Shown here piece after piece: positions 9,533-25,899 of a stretch of 64,000 nt of DNA (the first letter of the stretch is position 1; each line of letters starts with the position of its first letter). This DNA is from Gracilibacter sp. BRH_c7a (GTDB taxonomy: Bacteria; Bacillota; Desulfitobacteriia; Desulfitobacteriales; Syntrophobotulaceae). Below the pieces are notes generated by a model. It saw nothing but the letters and a program-made list of their open reading frames with translations. It did not search any database and was not told where the DNA came from. The stretch lies in NCBI GenBank assembly GCA_001516055.1, contig LOEZ01000096.1, positions 1-64,000 on the forward strand. Reading direction: 5' to 3'. The position numbers and the translations under genes are program-made.

Positions 9533-11551
9533 TTAATTCAGACGTTCCTTCAACAGTGGAAATAACTCCGGAGCACTAACCTCATTGATCCATCTCATCG
9601 ACCAAGAACCTATACCTCCAAGATTGAATTCATCCAGGAGATCGAGCTTAGCTGCCCAGCTCTGACCATCATCGAAGTACGCTGTCCGGCGGTACCCGTT
9701 TTCATCTGTATACTTGAATGTAGGAACACCAACTGGATCAGTAGGAGTAGTCTTCCGAGTTATGGTTGCTCCGTATTTGGCAGCAGTTTGGGTAGCTACA
9801 GCCCAACCGAAGGCCTGAGAATCCCAATCTTCTCCGTCATAAGTCCAAGTACGTCCGTAATAAGGGATGCCCATCAGGATTTTTTCCTCAGGAATTTGAG
9901 TAACAGCGTAAGCCATGACCTTTCTTACCCAGTCCAGTGGAGCAATCGGGCCGGGAGCGGAGGTCTTCCAGTGCATATCATAGGACATAATCTGGATGTA
10001 ATCAGCATATTTGGATAGCTCGCGGTAATTATACTCGGCAGTCCAAGGTTCTGCTGTACCTGAAGTCTTGGACATCACTGATATCATCACCAACTTACCT
10101 TGTGGACTAAGCCTTCCATAAATATCTTTCATCAGGGCAGTAAGACCGTACTCAGTATCATCAGCAAGACCTTCCAAATCTACCAGGAAGCCGTCGGCAT
10201 TCGTTTCCTGAACTATCTTTACTACACTGTCTGCGTAGTTCTTACGCTTAGTAGGACTGCGGAGCATATCACTCGCAATCTTTCCACTACTGTATAACAT
10301 GGGAACAACCTTGGCACCCTTGCTCTGTCCCAGGGCGACCAGATATTTTGGTATAGAGGAATTACTGAAACTATAGCCGAAACTGCCATCACTCCGAAGA
10401 TCACCTGCCAGGGTAGGAGAAAGAATATGAATATAATCCGTCAGATTCTCAGGAACATAGGATAAAATTCTTTCATAAGTTCTCAGATCACCATAACCAT
10501 CCCAGAACTGCAAAGATATCCTGGGGGTAACCTTCCCGGTGCGAATCAAACTTTCTGTTTTATAATTGACTGCTCCTGAACCGCCCAGAATAAAGAAATT
10601 ATTCACTAAAGACCGATAATTATTCAGATAAGAAGCCGTGGAAGTATTAAGAAGTCTATATTCATCTTTAGGTACAAGCAGGATAGGATTATACCCTCTG
10701 GCTGCTAAGACTGAACCGGCCAAGGCATCAGGAAAAGAAGCACCTGTGGCAATGATCATCTTATCCAGATTAAAATCTAAGCTGTTAAGGATAGCAGTAT
10801 TGGTCTCATACCTGTCACTACCGCTCAGACGATTCACTTTATATCCAGCCTTCTTCAGCTGATCTTCAGAAGAGACACCGATAACACCCTTTCCTCCAAT
10901 CAGAGTAACTTCAGTCACCCCAAGGGTTTGTAGTGCTTGCATAGTTTCTGCAGGAATGTACTTGGAAGTAGTGAGCAGAAGGGGAATACCGTTGGCCGCT
11001 GCATAAGAGGAGATACTCAAAGCATCCGCATAACTTTCACCAGATACCAAAAAAGCCTTAGTACTATTACTAACGGCTGTAATCGCAATCTTACCAGCGG
11101 TTGCATATCTATTAGCACCTTTGATCCGATAGGTCTGAATGCCGTTTGACTCGAGTTTCTCTTCCACGTTAGTGGATATAGCTCCTGTACCTCCTAAAAT
11201 ATAGACTGAATCGACTCCTAAACGTTTCATCTCTTGGAGTACTTCAGATCGCAGATACTCGGAATTAGTCAGAAGAAGTGGTCCACCTACTGTATCACTG
11301 TTAGCCAGCACTGCACCTGCCAGAGCATCAGGAAAATCATCTCCCCTGGCCAGAACAACGCTTGAGGATTCATCCCAGTTTTCGCTAGCGATATTCACCG
11401 CGGTCTCATACCTTGTACTACCGGAAAAACGTTCTAGATCGATAGCTATATCATCAGCATGGACAGGAGACATGGTGCTGCCCAATCCTGATAAGACACT
11501 ACTTATAAAAAGTAAAGTTAGTATCAAAGTGGCAGTAATCTTTTTAAACAT
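9533..11551 (-). CDS. CWB2 wall-anchored GH18-like protein, copy A
   Basis: 672 aa with a signal peptide (about residues 1-32). Three CWB2 repeats (about 38-325) have the hallmark FSGSTRYETA, FPDALAGA and ILGGTGA-style motifs. A C-terminal GH18 domain of YaaH/SleL type (about 340-672) includes YIQIMSYDMHW, GIPYYGRTW and SWSMRWI. CWB2 modules bind wall anionic polymer non-covalently; GH18 domains of this class act on peptidoglycan N-acetylglucosamine. The active-site strand reads DGFLVDLEG: the Glu is present, but the middle Asp of DxxDxDxE is Leu. A close paralogue with the same change is at 23785-25899. RBS GGAGAGGAG precedes ATG 11551. Wall remodelling, or a lectin-like role if activity is lost, are both possible. 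Confidence 0.88.
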   Translation of the reverse strand: MFKKITATLILTLLFISSVLSGLGSTMSPVHADDIAIDLERFSGSTRYETAVNIASENWDESSSVVLARGDDFPDALAGAVLANSDTVGGPLLLTNSEYLRSEVLQEMKRLGVDSVYILGGTGAISTNVEEKLESNGIQTYRIKGANRYATAGKIAITAVSNSTKAFLVSGESYADALSISSYAAANGIPLLLTTSKYIPAETMQALQTLGVTEVTLIGGKGVIGVSSEDQLKKAGYKVNRLSGSDRYETNTAILNSLDFNLDKMIIATGASFPDALAGSVLAARGYNPILLVPKDEYRLLNTSTASYLNNYRSLVNNFFILGGSGAVNYKTESLIRTGKVTPRISLQFWDGYGDLRTYERILSYVPENLTDYIHILSPTLAGDLRSDGSFGYSFSNSSIPKYLVALGQSKGAKVVPMLYSSGKIASDMLRSPTKRKNYADSVVKIVQETNADGFLVDLEGLADDTEYGLTALMKDIYGRLSPQGKLVMISVMSKTSGTAEPWTAEYNYRELSKYADYIQIMSYDMHWKTSAPGPIAPLDWVRKVMAYAVTQIPEEKILMGIPYYGRTWTYDGEDWDSQAFGWAVATQTAAKYGATITRKTTPTDPVGVPTFKYTDENGYRRTAYFDDGQSWAAKLDLLDEFNLGGIGSWSMRWINEVSAPELFPLLKERLN

Positions 11552-11578
11552 TATCTCCTCTCCTTCCTATGATTAATA

Positions 11579-11607
11579 ATAAAAATGATGGCACACCGAC
11601 CATCATT
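11579..11607 (-). terminator. Terminator-like hairpin between two-component operon and CWB2-GH18 gene
   Basis: AATGATGG (11584-11591) pairs with CCATCATT (11600-11607). On the minus strand it is followed by TTTTTATTATT. It probably ends the regulator/kinase operon read from 13874, but it lies just upstream of ATG 11551, so attenuation of the GH18 gene is also possible. Confidence 0.6.
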
Positions 11608-11642
11608 ATAAGAGAGGGATATTTACTTGTATACAGGTAATG

Positions 11643-11710
11643 TGTGGCAAGGGGACGTTTCGTTTGCCACGCTCGTCCCCTTGCCACACCGCTCGCTATC
11701 CTTTGTCCCC
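11643..11710. repeat. GTCCCC-type dispersed inverted repeat, copy 2
   Basis: Arms TGTGGCAAGGGGACG (11643-11657) and CGTCCCCTTGCCACA (11674-11688) enclose TTTCGTTTGCCACGCT; a further TGTCCCC follows at 11703-11709. The core GGGGACGTTTCGTTTGCCAC recurs, inverted, at about 17929-17948. Confidence 0.7.
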
Positions 11711-11722
11711 GAGTAACTTGGG

Positions 11723-13174
11723 CTACGCTATCGGTAAGGTGAAGCTGAAGATAGAACCTTTCTTGGGGATACTTTCTACGGATACGCGGCCTTTATGCAT
11801 TTCCACGATTTGTTTGACTATAGCCAGGCCGATACCTGATCCGGTATCTGTTCTCGTCCTGGCCTCTTCTACTTTATAGAACTTATCCCAAATATGTTGG
11901 AGGTGATTAGACGGAATACCTTGGCCCGAATCTTGGACATAGATGGTAATCTCGTTAGCGTCAGGAATAACTTGCGCATAGACTTTTATTACTTCAGCCG
12001 TAGTGGTATAACGGAAGGCGTTATCAATAAGGTTGATTAAAACCTGATGAATTCTGTCCTTGTCAACAGTTATTAGCGGAGAATCAGCCAGCAGAGATAC
12101 ATTTAGAGATATTCCTTTCTCTTCTGCTTGCGGGATATAGCGTTGTTGAATCCACTCTAGAAGCTCATTGGCCATGATTGGAGAAAGCTTTAAGCTAATA
12201 TGGCCGGACTGTAAGCTCGAAAGATTAATCAGGTCTTCAACCAGGCGGTTCAAATGCAAAGTGTCTTGAAGCATGATATTGATATAATTGCGATCTTCCT
12301 GAGGATTAATCTTATTATCCTCTAACAATTCCAGGAAACCCCGAAGAGAAGTAAGAGGAGAGCGGAACTCGTGGGAGATATTAGAGAGAAAATCATTTTG
12401 CAATTTCATCAATTTATCTTTTTCCTCGAGACTTTCAACCACTTTGCTAACCGCTAGATTAAAAGTGCCGATTAGATGTTCTAATTCCCCATTCGCTTTA
12501 TAGTCTACGCGTTTTGTGAAATTACCGTCAGAGATCTCTTGGGCTACCTCACTCATTTTTTCAATCGGCCTAGAGATGATTCGGGAAATTATTGTTCCTA
12601 CGATCAGGGCAAAAGGAATTAAGACTATGATGGCATAAAAGGCATACCGCGCCATATTAGCCATGATATTATTCAGGCGTCCTAACGAAGAAGTGACAGC
12701 AACGGCTCCGACCACTGTCTCGGATTCACCATCCCGAATAGGGACGACATTAAAAACAATGTTGTGGTTAGGGCCTGCAACTTGCTTGGTTACAACATTA
12801 CCATTTAGAACACCTTTGATCTCTGGCTCTTCCAGATTCAGGTTATTGCGGACATCTTCATTGGTAGCGGCGATAACCTCTCCATCTTTGTTAATCACCC
12901 AAATAGTGGATCCATACGTGAAGGAAAGAGTCTCGGTAAGCTCTTGAATTTTTTTAGGGGAATTACTAACCATAGGTTCAGTTAACAGTGAACTAATCTT
13001 TTGGACGCGAGCTCCTACTTCAATTCCTTCCATGCTAAAGAAATACTTCTGAGCCAGATTGAAAAAAATCAGGTAGAGGATGGCTACGGTTAAGAGAAGC
13101 AGGCCCAAAAAACTAATCGTTATTTTAAAGGACAGCTTTCTATCTGTGAAGAGAGAAGGTATCTTAGCAAACAT
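11723..13174 (-). CDS. Membrane sensor histidine kinase (HAMP, HisKA, HATPase)
   Basis: 483 aa. First TM segment about 17-38, extracytoplasmic Cache-like sensor about 40-165, second TM about 170-195, HAMP about 195-245 (IISRPIEKMSEVAQEIS). HisKA has the phospho-His in SNISHEFRSPLTSLRG, and the ATPase domain has N-box HQVLINLIDNAFRY, DSGQGIP and GSGIGLAIVKQIVEMH. Its start overlaps the regulator stop by 11 bp, so the two are translationally coupled. It resembles PhoR/ResE-type envelope-stress or nutrient sensors; ligand unknown. Confidence 0.92.
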   Translation of the reverse strand: MFAKIPSLFTDRKLSFKITISFLGLLLLTVAILYLIFFNLAQKYFFSMEGIEVGARVQKISSLLTEPMVSNSPKKIQELTETLSFTYGSTIWVINKDGEVIAATNEDVRNNLNLEEPEIKGVLNGNVVTKQVAGPNHNIVFNVVPIRDGESETVVGAVAVTSSLGRLNNIMANMARYAFYAIIVLIPFALIVGTIISRIISRPIEKMSEVAQEISDGNFTKRVDYKANGELEHLIGTFNLAVSKVVESLEEKDKLMKLQNDFLSNISHEFRSPLTSLRGFLELLEDNKINPQEDRNYINIMLQDTLHLNRLVEDLINLSSLQSGHISLKLSPIMANELLEWIQQRYIPQAEEKGISLNVSLLADSPLITVDKDRIHQVLINLIDNAFRYTTTAEVIKVYAQVIPDANEITIYVQDSGQGIPSNHLQHIWDKFYKVEEARTRTDTGSGIGLAIVKQIVEMHKGRVSVESIPKKGSIFSFTLPIA

Positions 13175-13874
13175 CTTCAGTCACCTCGAATTTATAGCCT
13201 ACTCCCCAGACGGTATGAATATAGGCCAGAGAGCTTTCCTCCCAAAGTTTTTTGCGTAAGTTTTTAATGTGCTCATCAACGGTACGGGTACTCTCTGTAA
13301 ATTCATAGCCCCATATCAGGTTAAGAAGCTGCTCGCGCGAAAAGACCTGCCCTCTGTTCTGAGCCAGGAAATATAGCAGTTCAAACTCCTTAGGCGTTAA
13401 TGGCATGGTTTTTCCATTAATCGATACAATATGTTTAGAGTTATCTATTCTCAATCCGTTGAAATCAATAACGCGACTGGGCTCGGGAGACTTCGTTGCA
13501 TTAGTCGTTCTGCGGAGGATAGCCCGAACTCTGGCCACCAGCTCTCTGGGACTAAAAGGTTTTACCACATAATCGTCTGCTCCCATTTCCAGCCCTAGAA
13601 TGCGGTCATTCTCATGACTTTTAGCAGTTAACATCAGGACGGGTACCCAGGAATCTTTTCCTCCTGTAATCTGGCGGCATACTTCCCAGCCATTCTTTCC
13701 GGGAAGCATAATATCTAGAATGATAAGGTCATATTCATTCTCAGAAGCGAATTTCAGGCCTGTAAGTCCATCTTCAGCCGTGGTTACCCAGAAGCCTTCC
13801 TGCTTCAGACAGAGCTTTAATAATTCGAGAACATGTTTATCATCTTCAATAACTAAAATACGGTATTCTTTCAT
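13164..13874 (-). CDS. OmpR/PhoB-family response regulator
   Basis: 236 aa. Receiver domain (1-120): acidic EDD, phospho-Asp in LIILDIMLPGKNGWEV, Lys in DDYVVKPFSPREL. Winged-helix DNA-binding domain (about 135-232): LTPKEFELLYFLAQNRGQVF and TVDEHIKNLRKKL. First gene of the two-gene operon with the kinase at 11723. A minus-strand sigma-A-like promoter is suggested upstream (TTGACA at 13951-13956, 17 bp, TAATTC). It likely controls envelope genes, but no binding site was identified. Confidence 0.93.
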   Translation of the reverse strand: MKEYRILVIEDDKHVLELLKLCLKQEGFWVTTAEDGLTGLKFASENEYDLIILDIMLPGKNGWEVCRQITGGKDSWVPVLMLTAKSHENDRILGLEMGADDYVVKPFSPRELVARVRAILRRTTNATKSPEPSRVIDFNGLRIDNSKHIVSINGKTMPLTPKEFELLYFLAQNRGQVFSREQLLNLIWGYEFTESTRTVDEHIKNLRKKLWEESSLAYIHTVWGVGYKFEVTEDVC

Positions 13875-13928
13875 CGAAGGCTCTCCTCCTCGACTATAAT
13901 ATAAGCTATTAATATCTTAACATATTAG

Positions 13929-13956
13929 AATTAGGAACGGTTCAATTAAATGTCAA
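13929..13956 (-). promoter_or_regulatory. Candidate sigma-A promoter for the OmpR-type operon
   Basis: On the minus strand TTGACA (13951-13956) is followed after 17 bp by TAATTC, 55-60 bp upstream of the regulator ATG. The -35 coincides with the edge of the repeated small-RNA-like element, so the two signals may share bases. No transcript evidence. Confidence 0.35.
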
Positions 13957-14115
13957 GAATTTGTAAGAAGGATAAACCTTTTGCAAAAGCCATAGACATC
14001 AGTCTTCAGTAATGCTATTCTACGAGCAAGTTAAGTAATGAATTCATCACTTTCTCCTCCTCCCGTAATATAAATATAAGGGCACAGCGTCTCAACATAC
14101 GCTGTGCCCATTTTC
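13951..14115 (+). ncRNA. Candidate small RNA, copy 1
   Basis: About 165 bp that recurs at 21186-21357. Conserved blocks are TGTCAAGA, ATAAACCTTTTG-AAAAGCCATAGACA, GCTATTCTAC-A-CAAGTTA, and CATCACTTTCTC-TCCTCCC, then a terminator. The C-rich tract complements Shine-Dalgarno sequences, as in many Firmicute regulatory RNAs. The terminator stem differs in sequence but keeps pairing (GGGCACAGCG/CGCTGTGCCC here). The layout recalls the endospore-former RNA CsfG; that link is a guess from memory of its architecture, not a search result. Plus orientation is chosen because only that side of the hairpin has a T-rich tail. Confidence 0.5.
14080..14115 (+). terminator. Terminator of small RNA copy 1
   Basis: GGGCACAGCG (14080-14089) pairs perfectly with CGCTGTGCCC (14100-14109), followed by ATTTTCT. 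In minus orientation it could also slow readthrough from the DoxX gene. Confidence 0.7.
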
Positions 14116-14195
14116 TATTAATTGCCGGGAAGAAGATGTTCAGATTCTAACCGACAGAGGGAGGACTTAATCTTCTGCTTATTAAGCTGAAAGTA

Positions 14196-14765
14196 TTACT
14201 TAGATGCTTGAGAGGCAGTTCTAAGGCTTCTAGGTAATACGAAATTAAATACATCAATTCCTTTAAACCTAAGGTATCCTTCTAATCCGATCAGTTCAGC
14301 ATATCTGGCAAAGTACATCATAGGTAAATTCGTCCAAATGTAGCCAAAATTGTTAAATGAGCCTCCGGCCATGAACTGAGTATTCATGAACATTGCGATG
14401 AAAGCAGCCAAGAATATTTTAAATCCAAATATCATAAATAATCCAACTGTAATTTCAAAAACAACGACTAGCAAATCAGTGAATGCCGGGGTACCTAAAA
14501 AGATATGATCTGCAACCCAGCCAAAAACCTTGTTAATATAAAGTGGATCAAAACGCGTAACTTCTGGACCTGCAATGTTACTAACAACTGTTTCAATTTT
14601 TCCGGCTGAATTAAGTTTACCATCACCTAACCATGCTAACTTACCCCATCCGGATTTAAGCCATGCCCATCCATAGATTACTCTTGCTACTGTAAGAATG
14701 AGTACGAGAGCTGCAACCTTCCAATCCTGTAACTGTTTTTTCACTTCATTAATATAGGCAGCCAT
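14196..14765 (-). CDS. DoxX/TQO-small-subunit family membrane protein
   Basis: 189 aa with four predicted membrane spans (about 15-40, 88-110, 112-135, 140-160). The opening VKKQLQDWKVAALVLILTVARVIYGWAWLKSGWGKL is typical of the DoxX family, as is the G-x-F-N-N-F-G-Y-I-W-T-N segment. The family includes the small subunit of thiosulfate:quinone oxidoreductase and proteins tied to redox or membrane stress; the electron donor here is unknown. GGAGGAGG lies 7 bp before ATG 14765. Expression almost certainly uses sigma-54: a perfect -24/-12 element lies about 95-110 bp upstream and a sigma-54 activator gene is divergent. Confidence 0.8.
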   Translation of the reverse strand: MAAYINEVKKQLQDWKVAALVLILTVARVIYGWAWLKSGWGKLAWLGDGKLNSAGKIETVVSNIAGPEVTRFDPLYINKVFGWVADHIFLGTPAFTDLLVVVFEITVGLFMIFGFKIFLAAFIAMFMNTQFMAGGSFNNFGYIWTNLPMMYFARYAELIGLEGYLRFKGIDVFNFVLPRSLRTASQASK

Positions 14766-14859
14766 ATTTGAAAACCTCCTCCAAAAAATTATTTAATAGT
14801 TTTAACAAAAAAACAAAAAAATGATAAAAGCAATAAATCTACCTGCCACTATTTAATAA

Positions 14860-14875
14860 TGCAAATTTCGTGCCA
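14860..14875 (-). promoter_or_regulatory. Sigma-54 (-24/-12) promoter of the DoxX gene
   Basis: Read on the minus strand the 16 bases are TGGCACGAAATTTGCA, an exact match to TGGCAC-N5-TTGCA. The expected transcription start is near 14848, leaving a leader of about 80 nt before ATG 14765. The only sigma-54 activator gene in the window lies divergently at 15216. Confidence 0.88.
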
Positions 14876-14917
14876 ACTATATAAAACAGCTCATTTTACA
14901 GGTTTTTCAATAATGGT

Positions 14918-15194
14918 GTTAACTAACTTATTCCTATATAGTTAACGCAGCTACTGCTTGAAAAATATTGAAAGTATAGATAGTTTTCCTCAAAAGTTTG
15001 ATGTGAATTCAATTATTTGAGATAAAGCAATACTATTAAAACTATAGGATTAGTTGACTTCTAAAGCTTCTTTTTTGTATGATGTGTTATAAGAAAATAG
15101 TTATTTGGGGAATGTATAAAATTCTCTTAGATAGTAGCAAAGTATGAATAAATAATACGTTAACTGAACTGTTAACCTGATAACCAAAGTTAAC
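14918..15194. promoter_or_regulatory. Five GTTAAC sites, putative enhancer elements
   Basis: GTTAAC occurs at 14918, 14941, 15159, 15171 and 15189. Two lie 43 and 66 bp behind the sigma-54 promoter; three cluster just ahead of the activator start. GTTAAC-TGAACT-GTTAAC (15159-15176) is a spaced pair. The arrangement fits upstream activating sites for DoxX induction plus autoregulation. A role as binding sites is inferred. The intervening DNA (14950-15150) is A/T-rich with no ORF. Confidence 0.55.
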
Positions 15195-15215
15195 AGAAAG
15201 AGAGAAGTTGATTGA

Positions 15216-17324
15216 ATGAAGCCGGAATTATTAAAAAAATTTCCGAGATTCTTGCGCTATGATTCGGAAGACAAGATCGAGTTTGCTTGGGGAATAGATA
15301 ATGACTTAAAAGTTGGGCAAGAAATGTTTGAACACTATCATATCCCAGGGAGTATAAAACGATTAGAGCTTCTCAAGGAAGATCTCGATCAGCTCTTTCT
15401 TGTCGAGAATCTTGCGAATTACGCAACAGCTCCCCAAGAAATCATCGATGCCATCGTGGAGAGAGTCAAGCAGGCAGTTCAGTTTGAACGGTTTGACCTT
15501 GTCAGAGTCAACCGGTCGTTGCGCCACTTCAATTTTGAATACTCCATCGGGGTTGATGTCGAAGGTGTAATCCGTACAGCATATAAAGGTATATCCGAAT
15601 CATCATTAGGTTGGATATTCAATAATGAACAATCCTACCTTGTCGAGAACTTCACGCCGGAAACTCATCGATTCAGTGAAGACTCACAGCTCTATCAGAC
15701 AGGTTTTCGTTCCGTGCTCCGGGTACCTATTATTTTTAACCATGGGGTTATCGGAGTAATTCTGCTTGCCAGTATGGAGCCTGAACATTATCAATTAGAA
15801 GATGCTTTCTTACTTCAGAAACTTTCTCAATCAGTGGCCCAAGCTTTTTTTCATGCCGGGGTACAGCAGGAACAAGAGTACAATACCTTAGCTTCCTCTA
15901 CTTTGCTGCAGACGGTTGTCAGCATGAATCGAGTAGGAGATAGAACTGAATTTTTAAATGCCTATTGCCAGACGTTACAACAGTTGGCGAAAACGGATAG
16001 AGTCGGACTATTTCTTGTTGATGATGAGAAAGATGAATACTGCTATATTGCAGAGGCTGGGAAGAAGCTGGCGATTGCGGTGGGGGAATGGCTTCCGATT
16101 AGCAATCTACCTTTTAGAGAGATGCTTAAGTCCCAGAGCATCGTGGCTTTTAACCTTGCTGATCCCCGCTATGGGAATATGGATGAATTACTTGGCAGAG
16201 GGTTTACAGCAGCACTCTATGCACCTATCAAAAATTCCCAAGGACGTATTAAAGCTTGTCTGGGGACCGCCACAGCAGATGAAAGTGCCATGTCCAACGG
16301 AATGGCGGGGTTATTTAAAGTCGCATCTGAACAATTATCTTTTATCATGATGCAGAGTACCCCCGATATAGCCGATAATAAGAAAACCGAGCAGACCACC
16401 TTGGTAAAACCAGAAGGATTCGAAGAAATTATAGGATCTTCAAAAACCATGCAGGATACCATTCAGAAAGCGGCTACAGTTTCACACTATGAATTTCCGA
16501 TTCTTCTTTTAGGGGAGACGGGAACGGGGAAAGAATTGTTTGCCAAAGCAATACATCGTTCCAGTGCCGTTTCCAAGGGTCCATTCATCGTGGTCAACTC
16601 TGCCGCAATTCCAGATAACCTGCTTGAATCTGAACTCTTCGGTTATAAAGAAGGAGCTTTTACAGGAGGATTAAAAGGCGGCAAAAAAGGGAAAATACTA
16701 CTTGCACATGGGGGCACCCTTTTTCTCGATGAGATTGGAGAGCTGTCCTTAGAGTTACAGGCTAAACTCCTGCGCGTTATTCAAGAAAAGGAAGTTGAAC
16801 CGTTGGGTTCGGAGAAACCTATCCCCATTGAGGTCAGAATTATCTCGGCAACTCACCGAAATCTTAAGGAAATGGTTAAGAATCACGAGTTTAGAGAGGA
16901 CCTGTATTATCGACTTAACAGTATTGAAATAAAAATACCCCCGCTCAAGGAACGGGGCCAAGATATCATCGAGCTCGCAGATAACATGCTCCAAGACTTG
17001 TCAAGGCGCAATGGTAAACGTACGAAGCGATTATCCAGCGAAGCAATCCAAGCTCTCTTAGACTGCGATTGCCCAGGAAATGTCCGGCAGCTGCAAAACA
17101 TTATTAACTGGGCTTTTGCATTTGCTGATAGTGACGTCATTAAGATCGAAGACCTGCCACCAGAGATGCAGATAAAAGTCAGGGAGAATGAAGAGGAGTC
17201 CGAGGTAGAAGAACTCGCCAGACTATTAGAAGAATTCAAGGGTAACAAGACAGCCTTAGCCAACTATTTAGGAATCACCAGGACGGGGTTATGGAAGAAG
17301 CTGAAGCGGTTGGGATTACAGTAA
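15216..17324 (+). CDS. Sigma-54-dependent transcriptional activator (GAF-AAA-Fis)
   Basis: 702 aa. Two GAF-type sensory regions (about 70-215 and 225-385) precede the AAA+ domain (about 405-640): Walker A GETGTGKE, the sigma-54 contact loop ([15 protein letters not shown]), Walker [13 protein letters not shown], and R-fingers in [10 protein letters not shown] Fis-type HTH closes the protein (about 665-702, [20 protein letters not shown]). The loop reads GAFTGG rather than GAFTGA. The activator hydrolyses ATP to open RNA polymerase-sigma-54 complexes. The divergent DoxX gene is the obvious target. Start: ATG 15216, preceded by AGAGAGAAG. Confidence 0.93.
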
Positions 17325-17442
17325 AGTTGAATAAGATTGCAGTCACAACAGCAGCCCCATCACTAAAGTGCTAACATTACTCAATAAGTAATTAGCGATA
17401 TGGGTAGAAGGCCCCAGTACTAGATGTGCAAGGGAAATCAAG

Positions 17443-17488
17443 GCCCCGCAGGCAGAGTCGAATTAACTCACCTGCGGGGCTTTTTTTA
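17443..17488 (+). terminator. Terminator after the sigma-54 activator
   Basis: GCCCCGCAGG (17443-17452) and CCTGCGGGGC (17471-17480) form a 10-bp perfect stem followed by seven T. Confidence 0.9.
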
Positions 17489-17518
17489 CTAAGAAATAAC
17501 TTGAAGGACATGATCACT

Positions 17519-17791
17519 CTAAGAAATTTCCTCTTTCTTCTCATCCAGCTTATTATTGATTTCAACCAAGTTCTCGTAAATTTTGAAAATAACCATAAGT
17601 AATTCGCAATAAATCCTTGTACCTATAGGGCCTAGAATCATAGTTGCAAGACCCATCAAAACCGCAATCCCGCCCTCGGTTAAAATGGCAATGCCTATCA
17701 ATACAGAAATAACGGTACCTATCCAGAATATAATTTTAATAAAAGGTGGAGTAATCATTTTGTCGAATTTAACAAATTGGCTGAAACTCAT
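17519..17791 (-). CDS. DUF4282 small membrane protein
   Basis: 90 aa. MSFSQFVKFDKMITPPFIK followed by two membrane spans (about 18-40 and 45-65), RIYCELLMVIFKIYENLVEI and a charged Lys/Glu tail match the DUF4282 family (N-terminal F-FDK-ITP, then R-Y-E). Function unknown. Monocistronic; AAGGGGA lies just upstream of ATG 17791. The terminator at 17443-17488 could serve both strands. Confidence 0.8.
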   Translation of the reverse strand: MSFSQFVKFDKMITPPFIKIIFWIGTVISVLIGIAILTEGGIAVLMGLATMILGPIGTRIYCELLMVIFKIYENLVEINNKLDEKKEEIS

Positions 17792-17911
17792 AGCAATCCC
17801 CTTCCATTTTTTAGAAATTACCCTATCACATTATAGGGAGTAATAGGTGTTAATTGGTACTATTTATATGTCAAGTGAGGAGTATAAAGACCCTGCTTCA
17901 GTTTAAATATC

Positions 17912-17984
17912 GGTAGGGTGGCAGGGAGGTGGCAAACGAAACGTCCCCCTGCCACCCTACCCCTGCCACCCTGCCACCATTTTT
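17912..17984. repeat. GTCCCC-type dispersed inverted repeat, copy 3
   Basis: Perfect 15-bp arms GGTAGGGTGGCAGGG (17912-17926) and CCCTGCCACCCTACC (17947-17961) enclose AGGTGGCAAACGAAACGTCC. Extra CCTGCCACC units and seven T follow. The inner GTGGCAAACGAAACGTCCCC is the reverse complement of the core of copy 2. It lies about 100 bp upstream of the DUF5667 gene. Confidence 0.7.
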
Positions 17985-18087
17985 TTATCCCAAAATCATA
18001 AAAAGGTACCAAAATTTAACGAAGACTGCGAATCACTATGGTGTACAAGTTGTACAAGAATAAAACGCAAGGGAGTAGAAAAAAAGG

Positions 18088-19425
18088 ATGAAAATTAAAA
18101 AGATACTAATACCATTTCTTTGTCTCCTGGTAATCTTTGCAGTTGGCCCCACTTATGCTTTTGCTGAGGAGACTCCGGTATCTGTCACAGAAACTGATAC
18201 CGATACAGAAACTACAACGGATTCAAATGATACTGACACGACTACTGATACTGACACAACTACTGACACTGATACCGACAGTACATCAGACACCGCAACA
18301 GATTCGGAGACAGACACGAATACGGAAGTAGACACAGAAGCGGATGATGAAGAAACCGAGACAGATGAAAATCTTGAGGAAGAAGCAGGCGTCACCCCCG
18401 ATAGCTGGTTGTATTCCATAGAACAAATGATTGAGAGCGTTCAAGTTGCGGTTACTTTTTCAGCTGATGGCAAAGCTGAATTACTGATAGAATTCGCGAA
18501 TGAAAGGCTTGCCGAAGCTCAGATTATGTCAGATCAAGATCAGCAGGACTTAGTGGAGAAAGTAATTCTTGCTTATTCAGAGACAATCAAAAAAGCAAAC
18601 TTCCAAGTCCAAAAGATTATTGAGGATACCGAAAGCGTTTCTGAGGAAAGCGAAGATATTTTAGATGAAACTACTGGAGAAACAGAAGAGGAAACAGCTA
18701 CTGAAGATACAGAAGTAACTGAAGATACAGAAGCTGCTGAAGATACAGAAGTTACAGAAGTTACAGAAGAACAAGCCAGAATCAGTAGCCTTATTGAGAA
18801 GATCGAACTTGTCCAGAGTGATGCCGATAAAATTGCTATCAAACTGACGGGAAATCTTTCTGAAGAACAAGCTGAACTTATGGCGAATGTTATTAAAGCT
18901 GAAGTTCAAAACACTATCGCCCTTAGAACTTATGTAACTGCTAAAAAGACCTATGTAGATTCTGTAAAACAATTTGCCACTGCTAAAAAAGAGCTTGGAC
19001 AGGCCCTTAGTACGGGTGATGAAACTGTAATTCAAGCCGCCCGGGAAAAAGTGGAGCTGGCAGAACAAAATAAAATTCAAATGAAAGAATTATCTAAAGA
19101 TGTGCATGAGCTGCAAAAAGAAGTTGCAAAAGAAAACCGGGAAGTAATGAAGGAACAAAAAGAAGAAATCAAAGAGCTTAAGAAAGCCAATAGAAACGAT
19201 GACGATGACGATGACGACGACGCAGACGACGCAGACGACGCAGATGATGCAGATGACGCAGATGACGCAGACGACGCAGATGATGCAGACGACGAGGCAG
19301 TAGAAGATGAAGATGGGGAAAATGATAATGAAGATAATGAAGTTGTGGTAAATAACACCGAAAAACAAAATAATGATAAGGATTCCAAATCAGATAGAGG
19401 AAATAACGGTAAAGACAAAGGCTAA
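18088..19425 (+). CDS. Secreted DUF5667 protein with Thr/Asp and Asp-rich repeats
   Basis: 445 aa. Signal peptide (about 1-27, ending YAFAEE), a Thr/Asp/Ser/Glu linker (about 30-105), then a DUF5667 domain (about 108-340) starting PDSWLYSIEQMIESVQVAV and broken by a Thr/Glu/Asp insert (about 190-230). Coiled-coil (about 300-370) and a strongly acidic Asp-Ala tract follow, with a charged C-terminus. The Asp tract is built from GACGCA/GATGCA hexamers and a nonamer at 19197-19295. Family function unknown; the acidic tracts suggest an extracellular cation-binding or spacer role (inference). RBS is AAAAAAAGG before ATG 18088. Confidence 0.8.
   Translation: MKIKKILIPFLCLLVIFAVGPTYAFAEETPVSVTETDTDTETTTDSNDTDTTTDTDTTTDTDTDSTSDTATDSETDTNTEVDTEADDEETETDENLEEEAGVTPDSWLYSIEQMIESVQVAVTFSADGKAELLIEFANERLAEAQIMSDQDQQDLVEKVILAYSETIKKANFQVQKIIEDTESVSEESEDILDETTGETEEETATEDTEVTEDTEAAEDTEVTEVTEEQARISSLIEKIELVQSDADKIAIKLTGNLSEEQAELMANVIKAEVQNTIALRTYVTAKKTYVDSVKQFATAKKELGQALSTGDETVIQAAREKVELAEQNKIQMKELSKDVHELQKEVAKENREVMKEQKEEIKELKKANRNDDDDDDDDADDADDADDADDADDADDADDADDEAVEDEDGENDNEDNEVVVNNTEKQNNDKDSKSDRGNNGKDKG
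19197..19295 (+). repeat. In-frame Asp/Ala codon repeat
   Basis: Short tandem units (GACGACGCA, GATGACGCA, GATGATGCA) encode poly(Asp-Asp-Ala). Units stay in frame with third-base variation, so selection acts on the peptide. Confidence 0.8.
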
Positions 19426-19444
19426 AATAGAATTACAAGTATCA

Positions 19445-19493
19445 AAAAAGCCCTCTCGCCCGCTTTTTCATCAATGGGAGGGGAGGGCTTTTT
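19445..19493. terminator. Bidirectional terminator between DUF5667 and GGT genes
   Basis: AAAAAGCCCTC (19445-19455) pairs with GAGGGCTTTTT (19483-19493). Both convergent genes end into it. Confidence 0.85.
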
Positions 19494-19506
19494 CTTATCC
19501 TTTTAA

Positions 19507-21114
19507 CTAATATACAGCTATCGTCCCGTCAGTTCTTGGCTCCGTGCCGCCTACGAGTATACCGTCTTTCGTTCTCCAAATAATTTGACCGCGACCAAAA
19601 CTGGTTGAACCCACAGAGTATTGCATTTGGTGACCAAGATTTCTCAGGGATAAGGTAAGATGCTCCTGGAAACTATGTTCCACTTCTACGACTTTTTCCG
19701 TTTTCCACTGCCATCTTGGGGCATCCAAACTGGCTTGGGGGTTAAGTCCAAAATCAATAGTATTCATGATAACCTGGATATGGCCCTGCGGCTGCATGAA
19801 TCCTCCCATTACTCCAAACGGGCCGATAGCTTGATTATCTTTAGTTAAGAAGCCCGGAATAATTGTATGATATGGTCTTTTCCCGGGCTTTAGATAATTA
19901 TCATGGGACTTGTTAAGCGAGAAGTTATTCCCGCGATTATGTAGGCTAATTCCGGTACCCGGAACTACTAGACCTGAACCAAAACCCATGTAGTTACTTT
20001 GAATAAAGGAGACCATATTTCCTTCACCATCTGCTGTAGCTAGATATACCGTTCCTCCTTTGGAAGGATTACCGGCTTCAGGAAGCAAGGCTGATTTCCC
20101 GATTAGCTTTCTTCTTTCTGCAGCATAGTCATCTGACAGAAGATCTTCCACCGTAACACTCATCTCAGATGGTTCAGCGATATATTTTAAGCCATCAGCA
20201 TAGGCAAGTTTCAAGGCTTCGATCTGTTTATGATAGGTGTCAAGAGAATCCTTATATTCGAAATCAAATCCTTTTAATATATTTAAGGCTATCAGTGCCA
20301 CAAGACCATGCCCGTTAGGTGGAATTTCCCAGACATTGTAGCCCCTATAATTAATGTTAATAGGCTTGACCCATTCCGGCTTATAATCCTCCAGATCCTT
20401 CTTCCGAAGATATCCGCCATACTGCCTGGAAAACTGATCTATCTTATCTGCAAGATCTCCCTGATAGAAGGATTGAGCATTGCTTTCAGCAATAGATTTT
20501 AAACTGTCGGCATGATGCTGAGAAGACCAGACCTCTCCAACTTCCGGTGCTCTCCCTTGGGGAGCAAACATCTCGAACCAATGTCTGAACTCCTCACCCT
20601 GAAGATTTTGTTTATAAGTACGATAGGAGTTTTTCCATAACCTCCCGACAGAAGGGGAGACAGGGTAACCTTGCTCGGCATATCTAATGGCTGGCTCCAA
20701 TACTTGAGTCAGTGGAAGTCTGCCAAAACGACCGGATAACTCTCTCCAGGCCGCAGGTGTTCCAGGAACTGTCACGGGAATCCATCCATATTTGGGCATT
20801 TCTGCATGACCCAACCGTTCAAGCACCTCAGCCGAGAGCCCGGATGGAGCAGGTCCACTTGAGTTTAAACCGTAAAGTTCTCCCTTTGTCCATATTAGGG
20901 CAAAAGCATCACCGCCAATTCCATTGGAGGTGGGGTCTACCACTGTAAGACAGGCAGCCGTGGCAATTGCCGCATCTATAGCATTTCCACCCTTTTTCAG
21001 AATGTCCAATCCTGCTTGAGCCGCCAAGGGCTGGGATGTTGCCACCATTCCATTCTTGGCGTATACAGACATCCGTTGGGAAGGATACGGATAATATAAC
21101 GAATCGAAATTCAT
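19507..21114 (-). CDS. Gamma-glutamyltranspeptidase-like Ntn hydrolase
   Basis: 535 aa without a signal peptide. GGNAIDAAIATAACLTVVDPTSNGIGGDAF is the GGT N-domain signature. The nucleophile Thr is in the processing region (GNPSKGGTVYLATADGEGNMV), followed by SNYMGFGSG and GMGF-like/PGTGISLHNRG motifs. Length and lack of a leader fit the cytosolic YwrD branch rather than secreted GGT. GGT enzymes autocleave and transfer or hydrolyse gamma-glutamyl groups (glutathione, gamma-Glu peptides). RBS AGGAGGTTATATTA precedes ATG 21114. Small RNA copy 2 lies upstream. Confidence 0.9.
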   Translation of the reverse strand: MNFDSLYYPYPSQRMSVYAKNGMVATSQPLAAQAGLDILKKGGNAIDAAIATAACLTVVDPTSNGIGGDAFALIWTKGELYGLNSSGPAPSGLSAEVLERLGHAEMPKYGWIPVTVPGTPAAWRELSGRFGRLPLTQVLEPAIRYAEQGYPVSPSVGRLWKNSYRTYKQNLQGEEFRHWFEMFAPQGRAPEVGEVWSSQHHADSLKSIAESNAQSFYQGDLADKIDQFSRQYGGYLRKKDLEDYKPEWVKPININYRGYNVWEIPPNGHGLVALIALNILKGFDFEYKDSLDTYHKQIEALKLAYADGLKYIAEPSEMSVTVEDLLSDDYAAERRKLIGKSALLPEAGNPSKGGTVYLATADGEGNMVSFIQSNYMGFGSGLVVPGTGISLHNRGNNFSLNKSHDNYLKPGKRPYHTIIPGFLTKDNQAIGPFGVMGGFMQPQGHIQVIMNTIDFGLNPQASLDAPRWQWKTEKVVEVEHSFQEHLTLSLRNLGHQMQYSVGSTSFGRGQIIWRTKDGILVGGTEPRTDGTIAVY

Positions 21115-21185
21115 TAATATAACCTCCTATCATAAATATTAACATTAATATACAGTATATCAGAAATCTTCGGGAGTGTAGCAAA

Positions 21186-21357
21186 TGTCAAGATTCTGTA
21201 ATAACAATAAACCTTTTGTAAAAGCCATAGACAGCAAGTGTAAGCAGTGCTATTCTACAAACAAGTTAGTAATGAATTTCATCACTTTCTCTTCCTCCCA
21301 TATATATACTTAATGGCACAGCGAACTAGAAAGTTTAACTGTGTCAGTTTTCTTTTA
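21186..21357 (+). ncRNA. Candidate small RNA, copy 2
   Basis: About 172 bp matching the element at 13951-14115 over its full length. It has the same blocks, ATAAACCTTTTG-AAAAGCCATAGACA, GCTATTCTAC-A-CAAGTTA and CATCACTTTCTCTTCCTCCC, and ends in a terminator. Its terminator has diverged in sequence yet still pairs. It sits between the divergent GGT and CWB2 genes, about 95 bp upstream of the latter. Function and promoter unproven. Confidence 0.5.
21315..21357 (+). terminator. Terminator of small RNA copy 2
   Basis: GGCACAG (21315-21321) pairs with CTGTGTC (21339-21345), with an inner AACT/AGTT stem, then AGTTTTCTTTT. It isolates the element from the downstream CWB2 gene. Confidence 0.65.
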
Positions 21358-21452
21358 ATCCTAAAAATAGGTATCGAACTTAGGATGGGAGGAGTTGGTC
21401 TGAAGTGTTATAATGATAAAAGACCCAATATATTGCTAAGGAGAAGGGAAGA

Positions 21453-22976
21453 TTGCTAGTGCCAAGAATCATAATTGTACTAAAAGAATCTCTGCTTCTG
21501 ACATTATTTCTAATCGTATTTGCAATGCCTTTATACGCATCAGACTACCAGATCGCATCTTTAGATGAGACGAATCGACTCTATGGAGATGATAGATATA
21601 AGACAGCGCAGGCTATAGCCGAGCAGATTAACAATGAAACTGTTGACTGTGTAGTCTTAGCTCCAAGCAATTATGCTAATGCTTTACCGGCGAGTGTCTT
21701 AGCTCATAAGAATAATGCTCCTTTGTTATTACTTAACAGCACTGCCAAAAGTACAAAGGAAGCATTCGACTATATTAACAGTCATCTTACTAAAACAGGA
21801 AAAATCTATCTCGTTGGTGACAGTAGATTAATCGGTTACGACTTTATTGCCGAACTTGATCTCTTAGGTTATAAAAATATAATTAGTATCTCTGGTACCG
21901 ATAAATATCAGACTGATTATTTAATAGCGCGAGAGTTAAATATATCAGATGGAACACCTGTAGTAATCAGTTCAGCTGAAGACTTCCCTGATGTAATCGC
22001 AATATCCAGCTTTGCAGCAGCTAATGGCTGGCCGATGCTGCTTACTGATGGAGAAGTATTAACATACAACATTAAGAATTTCATCGTGGAGAAACAGCCT
22101 TCAGAAATCTATATTACAGGTGGAGAAGGAGCAGTCTCTAAAGTTATTGAAGATGAACTTGTAAACATAGTTCCAAACACAAAGATTACAAGGTTTGCAG
22201 GTAATCAGAGAGATGAAACCGCTATGAAGATAACTAACCATTTTGCCCCCCAACCCCAGAACATCTATATTGTTTCTAACTATCTTGATGCCTTAGCCGG
22301 CAGTGTTTTAGCTGCCAAAACAAAGAGTCCAATTATATTGGTGAACTCGGCAACCAAAAGATCTCTTCCTAAAGACATAGTGCGTTATATGGCCGATACG
22401 AGAAAACGCCAAGCAAATACCAACATCATAGCACTTGGAGGATTAGCAGTTCTACCAGACGAGACATTTACCTTTGCCGCAAGTCTGGGTGGACAAATCA
22501 ATAGCATTGGTCAGCCAGTGGAGTTTAGTTATACAATAGAAAAAGATTATTGGTGGCTCTCAAGCAAAGCATTCGAGGAACATAAAGGAGAACTATCCGT
22601 AGAACAAGAATTAGCTTTAATGACTGCAGTGAATTTCTATAATGAATGGCTCTCCATAGACTACAGCACATTGGGCGAGAGTACTTTTGGTTTACAATAT
22701 GCCACCCAGAGATTTGCGCAAGGAGAACGAGAGAAAATAACAAATTTAACGGATATATATAATAGGCAGAGATATGTTAATCGAGTAGAAAAACTAACCG
22801 TATCAAGCATTGGAACTTACTATATGCTGCAAGATACTCCTTATACGTATGTTAGAATACGTGCTGACTCAGTTACCTATAATGCCGAAAGGGGAGGTAA
22901 TAATAAACGGTCTGATACTCATATCGTTTGTTTATATAACATCCACGGCTATTGGGAAGTCGATTTGGTGCAATAA
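21453..22976 (+). CDS. CWB2 wall protein with unclassified C-terminal domain
   Basis: 507 aa. Start is TTG 21453 after AGGAGAAGGGAAGA. A signal peptide (about 1-30) is followed by three CWB2 repeats (about 42-340): LYGDDRYKTAQAIAE, FPDVIAISSFAAANGWPMLLT, IYITGGEGAVS, LDALAGSVLAAKTKSPIILV. The last ~165 residues (VEFSYTIEKDYWWLSSKAF... to ...YNIHGYWEVDLVQ) resemble a small alpha+beta fold with Trp/Tyr-rich strands; I do not recognise the family. It is probably displayed on the wall and may bind a ligand. Monocistronic, with its own terminator. Confidence 0.8.
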   Translation: MLVPRIIIVLKESLLLTLFLIVFAMPLYASDYQIASLDETNRLYGDDRYKTAQAIAEQINNETVDCVVLAPSNYANALPASVLAHKNNAPLLLLNSTAKSTKEAFDYINSHLTKTGKIYLVGDSRLIGYDFIAELDLLGYKNIISISGTDKYQTDYLIARELNISDGTPVVISSAEDFPDVIAISSFAAANGWPMLLTDGEVLTYNIKNFIVEKQPSEIYITGGEGAVSKVIEDELVNIVPNTKITRFAGNQRDETAMKITNHFAPQPQNIYIVSNYLDALAGSVLAAKTKSPIILVNSATKRSLPKDIVRYMADTRKRQANTNIIALGGLAVLPDETFTFAASLGGQINSIGQPVEFSYTIEKDYWWLSSKAFEEHKGELSVEQELALMTAVNFYNEWLSIDYSTLGESTFGLQYATQRFAQGEREKITNLTDIYNRQRYVNRVEKLTVSSIGTYYMLQDTPYTYVRIRADSVTYNAERGGNNKRSDTHIVCLYNIHGYWEVDLVQ

Positions 22977-22995
22977 GACATAACACGCAAGAAAC

Positions 22996-23042
22996 GAAGA
23001 GGTTAAAGAGGCATTGATAACTCTTTAACCTCTTTCTTATTT
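22996..23042 (+). terminator. Terminator after CWB2 gene
   Basis: GAAGAGGTTAAAGAG (22996-23010) pairs with CTCTTTAACCTCTTTC (23021-23036), then TTATTT. Confidence 0.88.
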
Positions 23043-23126
23043 GCCTTGCACGGATTACAGCCAGATGTTATTCTACGGAGGATTAGTTAAAACGAGTCAC
23101 TACAAAAAATATCAGGAGGAATTATA

Positions 23127-23693
23127 ATGAAAGAAAATATGAAGTGTATTGTTAACGGCCAGGCTCTATCAAAGACTGAGTTCAACAGGCAAAAAGAATA
23201 TTTGAAAGCTAGCTTTAACCAACGGCAAATGGAATGGAAGGAAGAAGAAATAGAAAATTTGGCTCTGGAACAGATGATCGGTCAGGCTTTATTACTGCAA
23301 GAAGCAGGAAAAAAAGAGATAAAACCAAGTGCTGAAAAGATTGAGCAAAATGTTGAAAATGTTAGATCGCAGTTTTCTACGGAAGAGGAATTTAATCAAG
23401 CCCTGGAAAGCCAGAATATGACTCTTGAACAATTGGAAGCCGATATCTCCAAAGAACTTAGCGTTAATGATTTCTTGGAACAAACTATTCCACGTGAAGA
23501 AACCGTAGTTACTGAGGAAGAGATCTCAGCTTTTTATGAACAATATAAAGCAAATGCCGGAGATCAGGCCCAGAGTCTTGAGCTAGTGAAGGGACAGATT
23601 GAACAGATTCTTTCTCAACAAAAAGTTGGTCATGCCATAGGCAAAGTCGTCGAGAAATTAAAGACTGAAAGCCAAATAGAAACTTTTATTTAG
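23127..23693 (+). CDS. SurA-N-like chaperone-domain protein
   Basis: 188 aa matching the SurA/PrsA N-terminal chaperone domain: opening VNGQALSKTEFNRQKEYLK, LALEQMIGQALLLQEA, and the downstream helices EEEFNQALESQNMTLEQLEADI and EEEISAFYEQYK. The parvulin PPIase domain is absent and there is no signal peptide, so it is probably a cytosolic or trigger-factor-like chaperone. Strong RBS AGGAGGAATTATA precedes ATG 23127. Substrates unknown; nearby wall proteins are candidates by position only. Confidence 0.75.
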   Translation: MKENMKCIVNGQALSKTEFNRQKEYLKASFNQRQMEWKEEEIENLALEQMIGQALLLQEAGKKEIKPSAEKIEQNVENVRSQFSTEEEFNQALESQNMTLEQLEADISKELSVNDFLEQTIPREETVVTEEEISAFYEQYKANAGDQAQSLELVKGQIEQILSQQKVGHAIGKVVEKLKTESQIETFI

Positions 23694-23725
23694 AATAATA
23701 CAATAGAAGCGAATAACAATGAAGC

Positions 23726-23775
23726 TAAAAGCCCTCCCCGCTACTTTAATGAAAAGATGGCGGAGAGGGCTTCTA
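23726..23775. terminator. Bidirectional terminator
   Basis: AAAAGCCCTC and GAGGGCTTCT arms lie between the convergent SurA_N and CWB2-GH18 genes. Confidence 0.8.
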
Positions 23776-23784
23776 TGGTTAATC

Positions 23785-25899
23785 TTAGTTCATCCGTTCC
23801 TTCAACAGCGGATACAATTCCGGTGCACTGACCTCATTGATCCAACCCATGGACCAGCCACCGATACCGCCCAGAGCGAACTCGTCAAGCAAGTCGAGCT
23901 TGGCACCCCAGCTCTCTCGATCATCGAAGAAGGCAGTTCTCTGGTACCCATCCTCATCGACGTACTTGAAGGTAGGGACCCCTACAGGGTCACTGGGAGT
24001 AGTGTGTCTGGTTATGACAGCCCCGAACTGATTAGCTGTCTGAGTAGCAATAGCCCAGCCGAAAGTCTTGGATACCCAGCCATTACCTTCAGTCCTCCAG
24101 GTACGGCCGTAATAGGGTACCCCCATCAGGATTTGTTCCGAGGGTATCTCGGTTACTGCATAAGCCATAACCTCTCGTACCCATTCCACAGGAGCTATCG
24201 GTCCTGGAGCAGAAGTGGAATAGTGCTTATCATAAGACATGATCTGAATATAATCGGTGTATTTAGCTAGATCACGATAATTGTACTCATCATACCAAGG
24301 CTGGGCGGTGGCTGAAGTCTTAGACATTACCGAGACCATCACTAACTTACCCTTGGGATGAAGCTTCTCATAGAGTTCTTTCATTAGACTGGTGAGACCT
24401 TCCTCTGAATCGTCAGAGAGAGCTTCCATATCCACCAGGATACCATCAGCATTAGTTTCTTGTACCAGTTTCACAGCACTATTAACGAAATTACCTCTTT
24501 TCCCCGAGTCAGTAAGCATACTATCGGCAATCTTGCCAGAACCCATCACCATGGGGACGACCCTGGCGCCATAACTCTGGCCCAGATCAACAAGATATCT
24601 GGGAGTCTCCGCACTGGAGAACCTATAGGCGAAGCTTCCGTCGTTCTGTAGTCCTCCCGCCAGATTAGGTACCAGGATATGGATGGAATCGCTAAGACTT
24701 CCCGTTACGAAGTTCAGCTGATTTTCATAGGTGGTTTTGTTAGCATATCCATCCCAGAACTGCAGAGAAATCCTTGGATTTATCTTACCTGTACGTACAA
24801 TGTTCTCTATTTTATAATTAATGACTCCCCAACCTCCTAATATAGAGAATTTATTCACTTCTTCTCTATTATTATTCAGATAGGAAGCTGTAGGTGAATC
24901 CAGCATAGCATTCTCATCCTGTGGAACGAGAACTATAGGATTATTCTCCCGAGCCGCCAGCACAGAACCGGCTAAGGCATCAGGGAAGCTCATCCCTGTA
25001 GCTACGACTACCTTATCCATATTGAAGTTTAGGCTGTTCATGATCTCGATGTTGGTTAAGAACCGATTACTGCCGCTAAGACGGTCGACGCTGTATCCGG
25101 CCTTGGTTAGTTCATCGGCAACTCCAGCGCTTACTGCTCCTTCTCCGCCAATCAGGGTCACTTCCGTTACTCCCATCCTCTCCAGGGCATCTAAGGTAGC
25201 AGCAGGTAGCTGCTTGGGATCGGTGAGCAGGAGAGGAATACCGTTAGAGGCGGCGTAGGAAGAGATACTTAGAGCATCAGCGAAAGCTGTGCCTGAAACC
25301 AGGAAAGCCTGAGAACTATTTTCGACAGCCGTGGTAGAGATATTGGCGGCTGTCTCGTAACGGTTTTTACCATCGATACGATAGACCTGAATATCGTTGT
25401 CTATCAGTTCCTCTTCTACCTCGGTAGAGATAGCACCTGTGCCACCCAAGATGAAGACAGAATTGGTTCTGAGACGTTTCATCTCTTCCAGTACTTCAGG
25501 ACGCAGGCGTTTGGATTCCGTTAACAGCAGGGGGCCGCCTCCCACCACCGCACTATTGGCGAGTACTGCACCGGCTAAGGCGTCAGGGAAAGAATCTCCC
25601 CTGGCTAGAACAACATTATAAGCTTCAATCCAGTTCTTACTGGATATATCTACTGCAGTCTCATATCTGTTTCCCCCCGCGAAGCGTTCGAAGGTCTTGC
25701 TAACAGATTCACTATCCCCATATGTAGGTATGACTGAGCCGAAGAAAGCACCTGTAGTCAAGAGGGCCGCCGCTGTCACCATTGCCGCACCCTTCTTGAA
25801 CAGCTTACCAGCGTCAAGTCTTTTATTCTCTAATTTACCTTTGATTATTTCCTTCCAAATGTGGTAAGATTGCTTTGAGAAAAAATGGTTTCTGAACAT
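23785..25899 (-). CDS. CWB2 wall-anchored GH18-like protein, copy B
   Basis: 704 aa, close paralogue of 9533-11551 across its length. N-terminus has a long basic region and a membrane-type signal (about 34-62). Three CWB2 repeats (about 68-355) precede the GH18 domain (about 370-704): DGILVDMEAL, YIQIMSYDKHY, GVPYYGRTW, WSMGWINEVSAPELYPLL. As in copy A, the active-site strand lacks the middle Asp (Leu instead) but keeps the Glu. RBS AAGGAGAT lies 5 bp before ATG 25899. It likely acts on or binds wall glycan. The N-terminus is longer than copy A's and unusually hydrophilic. Confidence 0.87.
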   Translation of the reverse strand: MFRNHFFSKQSYHIWKEIIKGKLENKRLDAGKLFKKGAAMVTAAALLTTGAFFGSVIPTYGDSESVSKTFERFAGGNRYETAVDISSKNWIEAYNVVLARGDSFPDALAGAVLANSAVVGGGPLLLTESKRLRPEVLEEMKRLRTNSVFILGGTGAISTEVEEELIDNDIQVYRIDGKNRYETAANISTTAVENSSQAFLVSGTAFADALSISSYAASNGIPLLLTDPKQLPAATLDALERMGVTEVTLIGGEGAVSAGVADELTKAGYSVDRLSGSNRFLTNIEIMNSLNFNMDKVVVATGMSFPDALAGSVLAARENNPIVLVPQDENAMLDSPTASYLNNNREEVNKFSILGGWGVINYKIENIVRTGKINPRISLQFWDGYANKTTYENQLNFVTGSLSDSIHILVPNLAGGLQNDGSFAYRFSSAETPRYLVDLGQSYGARVVPMVMGSGKIADSMLTDSGKRGNFVNSAVKLVQETNADGILVDMEALSDDSEEGLTSLMKELYEKLHPKGKLVMVSVMSKTSATAQPWYDEYNYRDLAKYTDYIQIMSYDKHYSTSAPGPIAPVEWVREVMAYAVTEIPSEQILMGVPYYGRTWRTEGNGWVSKTFGWAIATQTANQFGAVITRHTTPSDPVGVPTFKYVDEDGYQRTAFFDDRESWGAKLDLLDEFALGGIGGWSMGWINEVSAPELYPLLKERMN

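Follow-up and report, generated by a model that had tools for sequence, protein, structure and literature searches.

Two paralogous predicted small RNAs in Gracilibacter may feed back on the response regulator divergent from one of them

The 64,000-nucleotide stretch of Gracilibacter sp. BRH_c7a that we analyzed (contig LOEZ01000096.1; "the window") carries the same intergenic element at two places, raising the question of what the element encodes and what it might regulate. A first-pass annotation had described it as a duplicated small-RNA-like element flanked by unrelated genes, and that description held. Copy 1 (positions 13950 to 14119) and copy 2 (21185 to 21357) are homologous and alignable over their whole length, and a BLAST search with copy 1 found copy 2 at 82% identity over 140 nt (E=1.3e-31). 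Their neighbors are indeed different, copy 1 lying between a response regulator gene and a DoxX-like gene and copy 2 between a gamma-glutamyltransferase gene and a gene for a CWB2 protein. Both copies lie next to genes of the cell envelope. The same query found no third copy in the organism's own 4.1-Mb assembly.

A second Gracilibacter species, represented by the metagenome-assembled genome (MAG) LH_M27, the one further genome of the genus in the search, also has two copies, each the syntenic ortholog of one window copy; in both species, the order is DoxX-like gene, element, and response regulator at copy 1 and CWB2 protein, element, and gamma-glutamyltransferase at copy 2. The duplication therefore predates the species split. 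The idea that the element is a mobile or selfish repeat and regulates nothing, which could appeal to the two copies carried by one genome, is scarcely credible, because each species has exactly two copies, at orthologous positions, and no others; because terminal inverted repeats are absent; and because conservation is nonuniform, tracking the promoter, tract, and terminator described below.

Searches with the RNA and its promoter block outside the genus (up to 80 relatives) gave only chance-level matches, and when 84,980 species genomes were scanned for the exact pattern, the element turned up in the LH_M27 MAG alone. One other exact-pattern match (L046) appears to be coding on inspection, and matches L047 to L049 were at chance level, model scoring giving no good match. 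Weak covariance-model matches were likewise rejected: L072 and L073 lie inside apparent coding sequence, G010 lies within a coding gene, and L074 lies upstream of a CobT-like gene. A scan of viral contigs returned four short matches. None of the 4227 Rfam families matched at the gathering threshold, and only chance-level matches were seen at E values up to 10.

The layout of the element points to an RNA gene. About 7 nt past a TATTCT hexamer, the plus strand presents in turn a short hairpin, a CU-rich tract, an A/U linker, and a second hairpin, this one ending in a T-rich tail. The predicted sRNA1 transcript (14028 to 14119, plus strand; start placed from the −10 element to within ±2 nt), which is delimited by its flanking promoter and terminator and has an ortholog in LH_M27, would consist of a 5′ hairpin at 14033 to 14052 (AAGTAATGAATTCATCACTT), a CU-rich anti-Shine-Dalgarno tract at 14050 to 14064 (CTTTCTCCTCCTCCC), and a terminator at 14080 to 14119, detected by consensus scan, in which an 11-bp stem (14080 to 14109) is followed by a T-rich tail. 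The predicted sRNA2 transcript (21263 to 21357, plus strand; start ±2 nt) scored 196 bits with model R1, which was itself built partly from copy 2, and would have a 5′ hairpin at 21268 to 21286, seen by folding, a CU-rich tract at 21285 to 21299 (CTTTCTCTTCCTCCC), and at 21314 to 21357 an interrupted terminator stem with a T-rich tail, which is predicted by folding only and is not listed by the consensus scan. The tract is conserved in all four copies, as the first-pass annotation had claimed for the two in the window. In sRNA1, it is mostly unpaired in the predicted ensemble, with part of it held by a weak helix. The stem of the 5′ hairpin is retained in copies 1 and 2 and in LH_M27 copy 1 despite indels that shift the loop length by 0 to 2 nt, and the hairpin is weaker in LH_M27 copy 2.

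Fold z-scores for the four copies were −6.5 (sRNA1), −2.2 (sRNA2), −5.5, and −5.1. The terminator had been described as covarying, which was half right: the two stems have diverged in sequence without losing their pairing, yet the amount of true covariation is modest. Across the four sequences, the whole structure shows two pairs with two-sided changes, and 88.5% of cells are paired; the covariation score was reached by 5 of 500 shuffles, and the RNAalifold covariation term is about zero. This support is thin because just two species and four sequences are available. No conserved open reading frame was found on either strand, the length and frame of mini-ORFs differing between copies. Since no plus-strand gene lies between copy 1 and the convergent gene, copy 1 is best viewed as a stand-alone RNA and not as a leader. 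We infer that both elements are paralogous noncoding sRNA genes of about 90 nt on the plus strand, each with an anti-Shine-Dalgarno tract. Both genomes encode Hfq.

Alternatively, the minus strand might be the functional one, serving as a leader in which a strong ribosome site (GGGAGGAGGAGAAAGTG) is followed by a short peptide, located upstream of the genes for the response regulator and gamma-glutamyltransferase. The ribosome-site-like sequence is followed by an ATG, the element lies about 75 nt upstream of a minus-strand gene at both loci, and a promoter-like minus-strand site at copy 1 scores 10/12. However, the peptides (MNSLLNLLVE, MKFITNLFVE, MKVHY, and MKCFTCI) vary in frame and length, the terminator T-tract is on the plus strand in four of four copies, and by inspection the promoter-like −35 is missing from the other three copies, making a minus-strand function very improbable.

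Each plus-strand sRNA gene appears to have its own promoter. That of sRNA1 (13993 to 14021, plus strand) consists of TAGACA, a 17-bp spacer ending in TGC, and TATTCT, scoring 9/12 in the scan with an extended −10; that of sRNA2 (21228 to 21256, plus strand), also found by consensus scan, has the same hexamers, spacer length, and TGC end. Across the four sRNA copies, the −35 is TAGACA, except for TATACA in one, and spacers of 17, 17, 18, and 17 bp, variable in sequence and nearly fixed in length, end in TGn and are followed by TATTCT. Judged by sequence, this combination of fixed hexamers and variable spacer is characteristic of a sigma-A-type promoter that has an extended −10. A related promoter remnant (23043 to 23082, plus strand) precedes the window's SurA-N-like gene (23127 to 23693) and reads TTGCAC, 17 bp, TATTCT, and then CGGAGGATTAG; it retains TGTTATTCTACGGAGGATTAG, preceded 17 bp upstream by TTGCAC, but not CATAGACA. 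Because the −10 (TGTTATTCT) is retained there without CATAGACA, the −10 is TATTCT and CATAGACA spans the −35.

This assignment bears on the earlier suggestion of a CsfG-like sporulation RNA, one that a sigma-F/G promoter at ATAA...CATAGACA would switch on in the forespore. Both genomes encode sigma-G, which leaves room for sporulation as such; CATAGACA is vaguely like sporulation −10 boxes, and C-rich regions occur in CsfG too (PMC8216469). Nevertheless, CATAGACA holds the −35 TAGACA and is followed by a spacer of near-fixed length and TGnTATTCT, and TTGCAC takes its place in the surA-like promoter, so the forespore-type promoter was rejected. Kinship to CsfG found no backing in Rfam either, although the presence of a CsfG model there is unconfirmed, and overall we regard a CsfG-kind RNA as highly improbable.

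Upstream of each sigma-A-type promoter lies a conserved control block (13950 to 13992 for sRNA1 and 21185 to 21227 for sRNA2, both on the plus strand) containing a repeat with an 11-bp period (TGTCAAGAATTTGTAAG at 13951 to 13967; TGTCAAGATTCTGTAAT at 21186 to 21202) and a palindrome (CTTTTGCAAAAG at 13978 to 13989; CTTTTGTAAAAG at 21213 to 21224). In LH_M27, a fifth, full copy of the block, without the RNA, sits before the SurA-N-like gene (C116:6227-6301; L051, minus strand), where promoter model R2, built including this site, gave it 63 bits and the earlier R1, built without it, gave 33 bits. The repeat, TGTnAAGAnTnTGTnA, is invariant in the five promoter copies of the two species and in most of them is about one letter per half away from the WalR motif, in the form quoted from PMC9210968 (TGTWAH-N5-TGTWAH).

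The gene divergent from sRNA1 encodes an OmpR/PhoB-family response regulator (13164 to 13874, minus strand; Pfam Response_reg plus Trans_reg_C), for which PhoB, MtrA, and YycF are the nearest NCBIfam models, all below cutoff. The partner sensor histidine kinase (11723 to 13174, minus strand) completes the two-component system; among 74 genomes of the order, it occurs in this genus only, the next best match having 34% identity. The histidine kinase and the sRNAs are thus both confined to the genus within the order, a shared range that, over two species only, is consistent with a connection but weak evidence for it. PhoB/WalR-like repeats number three in the window against 2.6 expected, which is not significant alone, and it is therefore from linkage, co-distribution, and the repeat together that we infer promoter control; these suggest that the neighboring response regulator drives the sRNA promoters.

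The same gene emerged from the search for targets. In a duplex screen of 44 translation starts in the window, copy 1 ranked the response regulator first, at −29.0 kcal/mol versus −21.9 for the next start. In the predicted pairing site (13881 to 13906, minus strand), the CU tract would base-pair with the ribosome site GAGGAGGAGAG (13881 to 13891) and the A/U linker with UUAUAUUAUAG upstream of it. The LH_M27 site is GGGGAGGAAGAG, of which GGGAGGAAGAG is an exact 11-nt match to the copy 2 tract. Against backgrounds of about a quarter of the own genome (968 starts) and about a third of LH_M27 (724 starts), both drafts treated with a simple gene caller, the response regulator site ranked 1/968 and 5/724 with copy 1 and 21/968 and 7/724 with copy 2, and its geometric mean put it at the head of 181 ortholog pairs (second in a rerun with shorter seeds). 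With the cost of opening the site included, its ranks were 8/968, 73/968, 10/724, and 3/724; by cofold gain, its ranks in the own genome were weaker (53/968 and 149/968). The ribosome sites of CWB2/S-layer genes, previously put forward as targets, did not stand out, with duplex ranks of 42, 234, and 807 of 968 for copy 1.

Composition contributes to these ranks, since CU tracts pair with many ribosome sites, and the response regulator site still came first in 10% of within-tract shuffles of copy 1 alone. When the tract columns were permuted jointly in all four copies (with shorter seeds), none of 200 permutations equaled the real score of the response regulator; by this sequence measure, the complementarity exceeds composition. 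It could still be argued that the RNAs are a general anti-Shine-Dalgarno, C-rich pair of the RsaE/RoxS/FsrA type with many metabolic and envelope targets, that the match to the regulator is incidental, and that the promoters answer to another regulator. Many ribosome sites do score nearly equally, among them those of CopA and two-component genes, and C-rich motifs are frequent in the sRNAs of low-GC Gram-positive bacteria (PMC4132741). We consider this argument unlikely, because it leaves to chance that the site ranks first or second across species and outscores every one of those permutations, that the gene concerned is the adjacent, divergent one, and that the RNA and the two-component system have the same range. 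The divergent response regulator gene is the best-supported predicted target. One candidate promoter of this gene would give a leader of only about 12 nt, and pairing of the A/U linker with the leader may be unavailable.

Our preferred reading, to which we assign a probability of roughly 0.55, is that the sRNA pair, probably driven by the divergent regulator, blocks ribosome sites, including the regulator's own. Each sRNA would be made from its own sigma-A-type promoter, under a common conserved upstream control region, and would end at an intrinsic terminator, and the CU-rich tract that follows the 5′ hairpin would pair with purine-rich ribosome-binding sites and so block the start of translation, most plausibly on the mRNA of the response regulator divergent from copy 1. 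If that regulator does drive the sRNA promoters, an envelope-stress two-component system would be subject to a negative feedback loop. A fuller scenario is tentative and, taken whole, rather doubtful: a duplicated envelope-regulator promoter region, whose control element additionally acts on a SurA-like chaperone gene, would have given rise to an sRNA pair specific to the genus. The two RNAs would close the loop on the divergent regulator through a bipartite interaction, in which the CU tract binds the ribosome site and the A/U linker binds the upstream leader, and this interaction would have moved in step with its target between species. If the preferred reading is right, it adds an uncatalogued sRNA family tied to a two-component system, a csRNA/LhrC/Omr design carried by a sequence family that appears unrelated, and a compact regulator-sRNA-regulator loop. 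To our knowledge, few trans-acting sRNAs have been characterized in the strictly anaerobic clostridia of this order.

Several known systems have a comparable design. The csRNAs of CiaRH in Streptococcus are several similar short RNAs with an unpaired anti-Shine-Dalgarno region between a 5′ stem-loop and a terminator, and CiaR binds direct repeats with N5 spacing, TTTAAG-N5-TTTAAG (PMC3091779). The elements described here resemble them in being similar RNAs with a predicted unpaired anti-Shine-Dalgarno region between the 5′ hairpin and the terminator and in their linkage to a response regulator, but the block holds TGTCAAGANTNTGTAA, a repeat of the form TGTnAA-N5-TGTnA(G/T), and one of the copies both diverges from the regulator gene and is complementary to it. 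In Listeria, LhrC1-5, linked to the envelope-stress two-component system LisRK, are multicopy RNAs with a UCCC motif between two stem-loops that block Shine-Dalgarno sequences (PMC4132741); here, too, there is a multicopy design with an anti-Shine-Dalgarno motif and a two-component connection, in our case linkage plus shared range, although the copies are more divergent and lie at separate loci. The paralogous enterobacterial sRNAs OmrA and OmrB repress OmpR, their own activator, and pair via their 5′ tails (PMC7549644); our two paralogs are likewise predicted to repress the regulator that would activate them, but they are not homologous to OmrA/B, do not share the 5′-tail mode, and have an activator that is proposed from the evidence above. 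RoxS, FsrA, and CsfG of Bacillus subtilis have a C-rich region that is reported to be a likely partner of ribosome sites (PMC8216469), a likeness accompanied here by differences: there are two copies with a two-component linkage, and neither an Rfam match nor a forespore promoter was found. No sequence kinship to the csRNAs, LhrC, or OmrA/B was found, because nothing in Rfam matches, the presence of LhrC and CsfG models in that database being unconfirmed. The best reading of these comparisons is that the RNA pair would work like the CiaR csRNAs, LisR-LhrC, and OmpR-OmrA/B yet apparently belongs to a separate sequence family; it is uncatalogued and probably adds a genus-specific case to a type of regulatory-RNA feedback already known.

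Some smaller observations concern the surroundings and other possible members of the system. The window's SurA-N-like ortholog retains just the −10 and the first part of the leader and is possibly a lost regulon member. Two further ribosome sites have at most two mismatches to the anti-tract sequence and are possible additional targets, namely, those of a CopA-like copper ATPase gene in the own genome (L128 7859-10321, minus strand) and a PSP1/RicT-like gene in LH_M27 (L065, around 1501, minus strand). The region from 9533 to 25899 contains a cluster of CWB2 protein genes, two of them fused to glycosyl hydrolase family 18 domains, along with the two-component system, a DUF5667 Asp/Thr-rich exported protein, and the gamma-glutamyltransferase. 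Past the sRNA1 terminator, at 14149 to 14168, the patch AACCGACAGAGGGAGGACTT (AACCAACAAAGGGAGGACTT in LH_M27) is kept in an otherwise diverged spacer; within it, GGGAGGA complements the CU tract, and in LH_M27 this stretch falls within a hairpin loop (L050, minus strand, downstream of the element). The patch may be a sponge-like site; alternatively, it may represent a UCCUCCC loop in the 3′ region of the DoxX-like gene.
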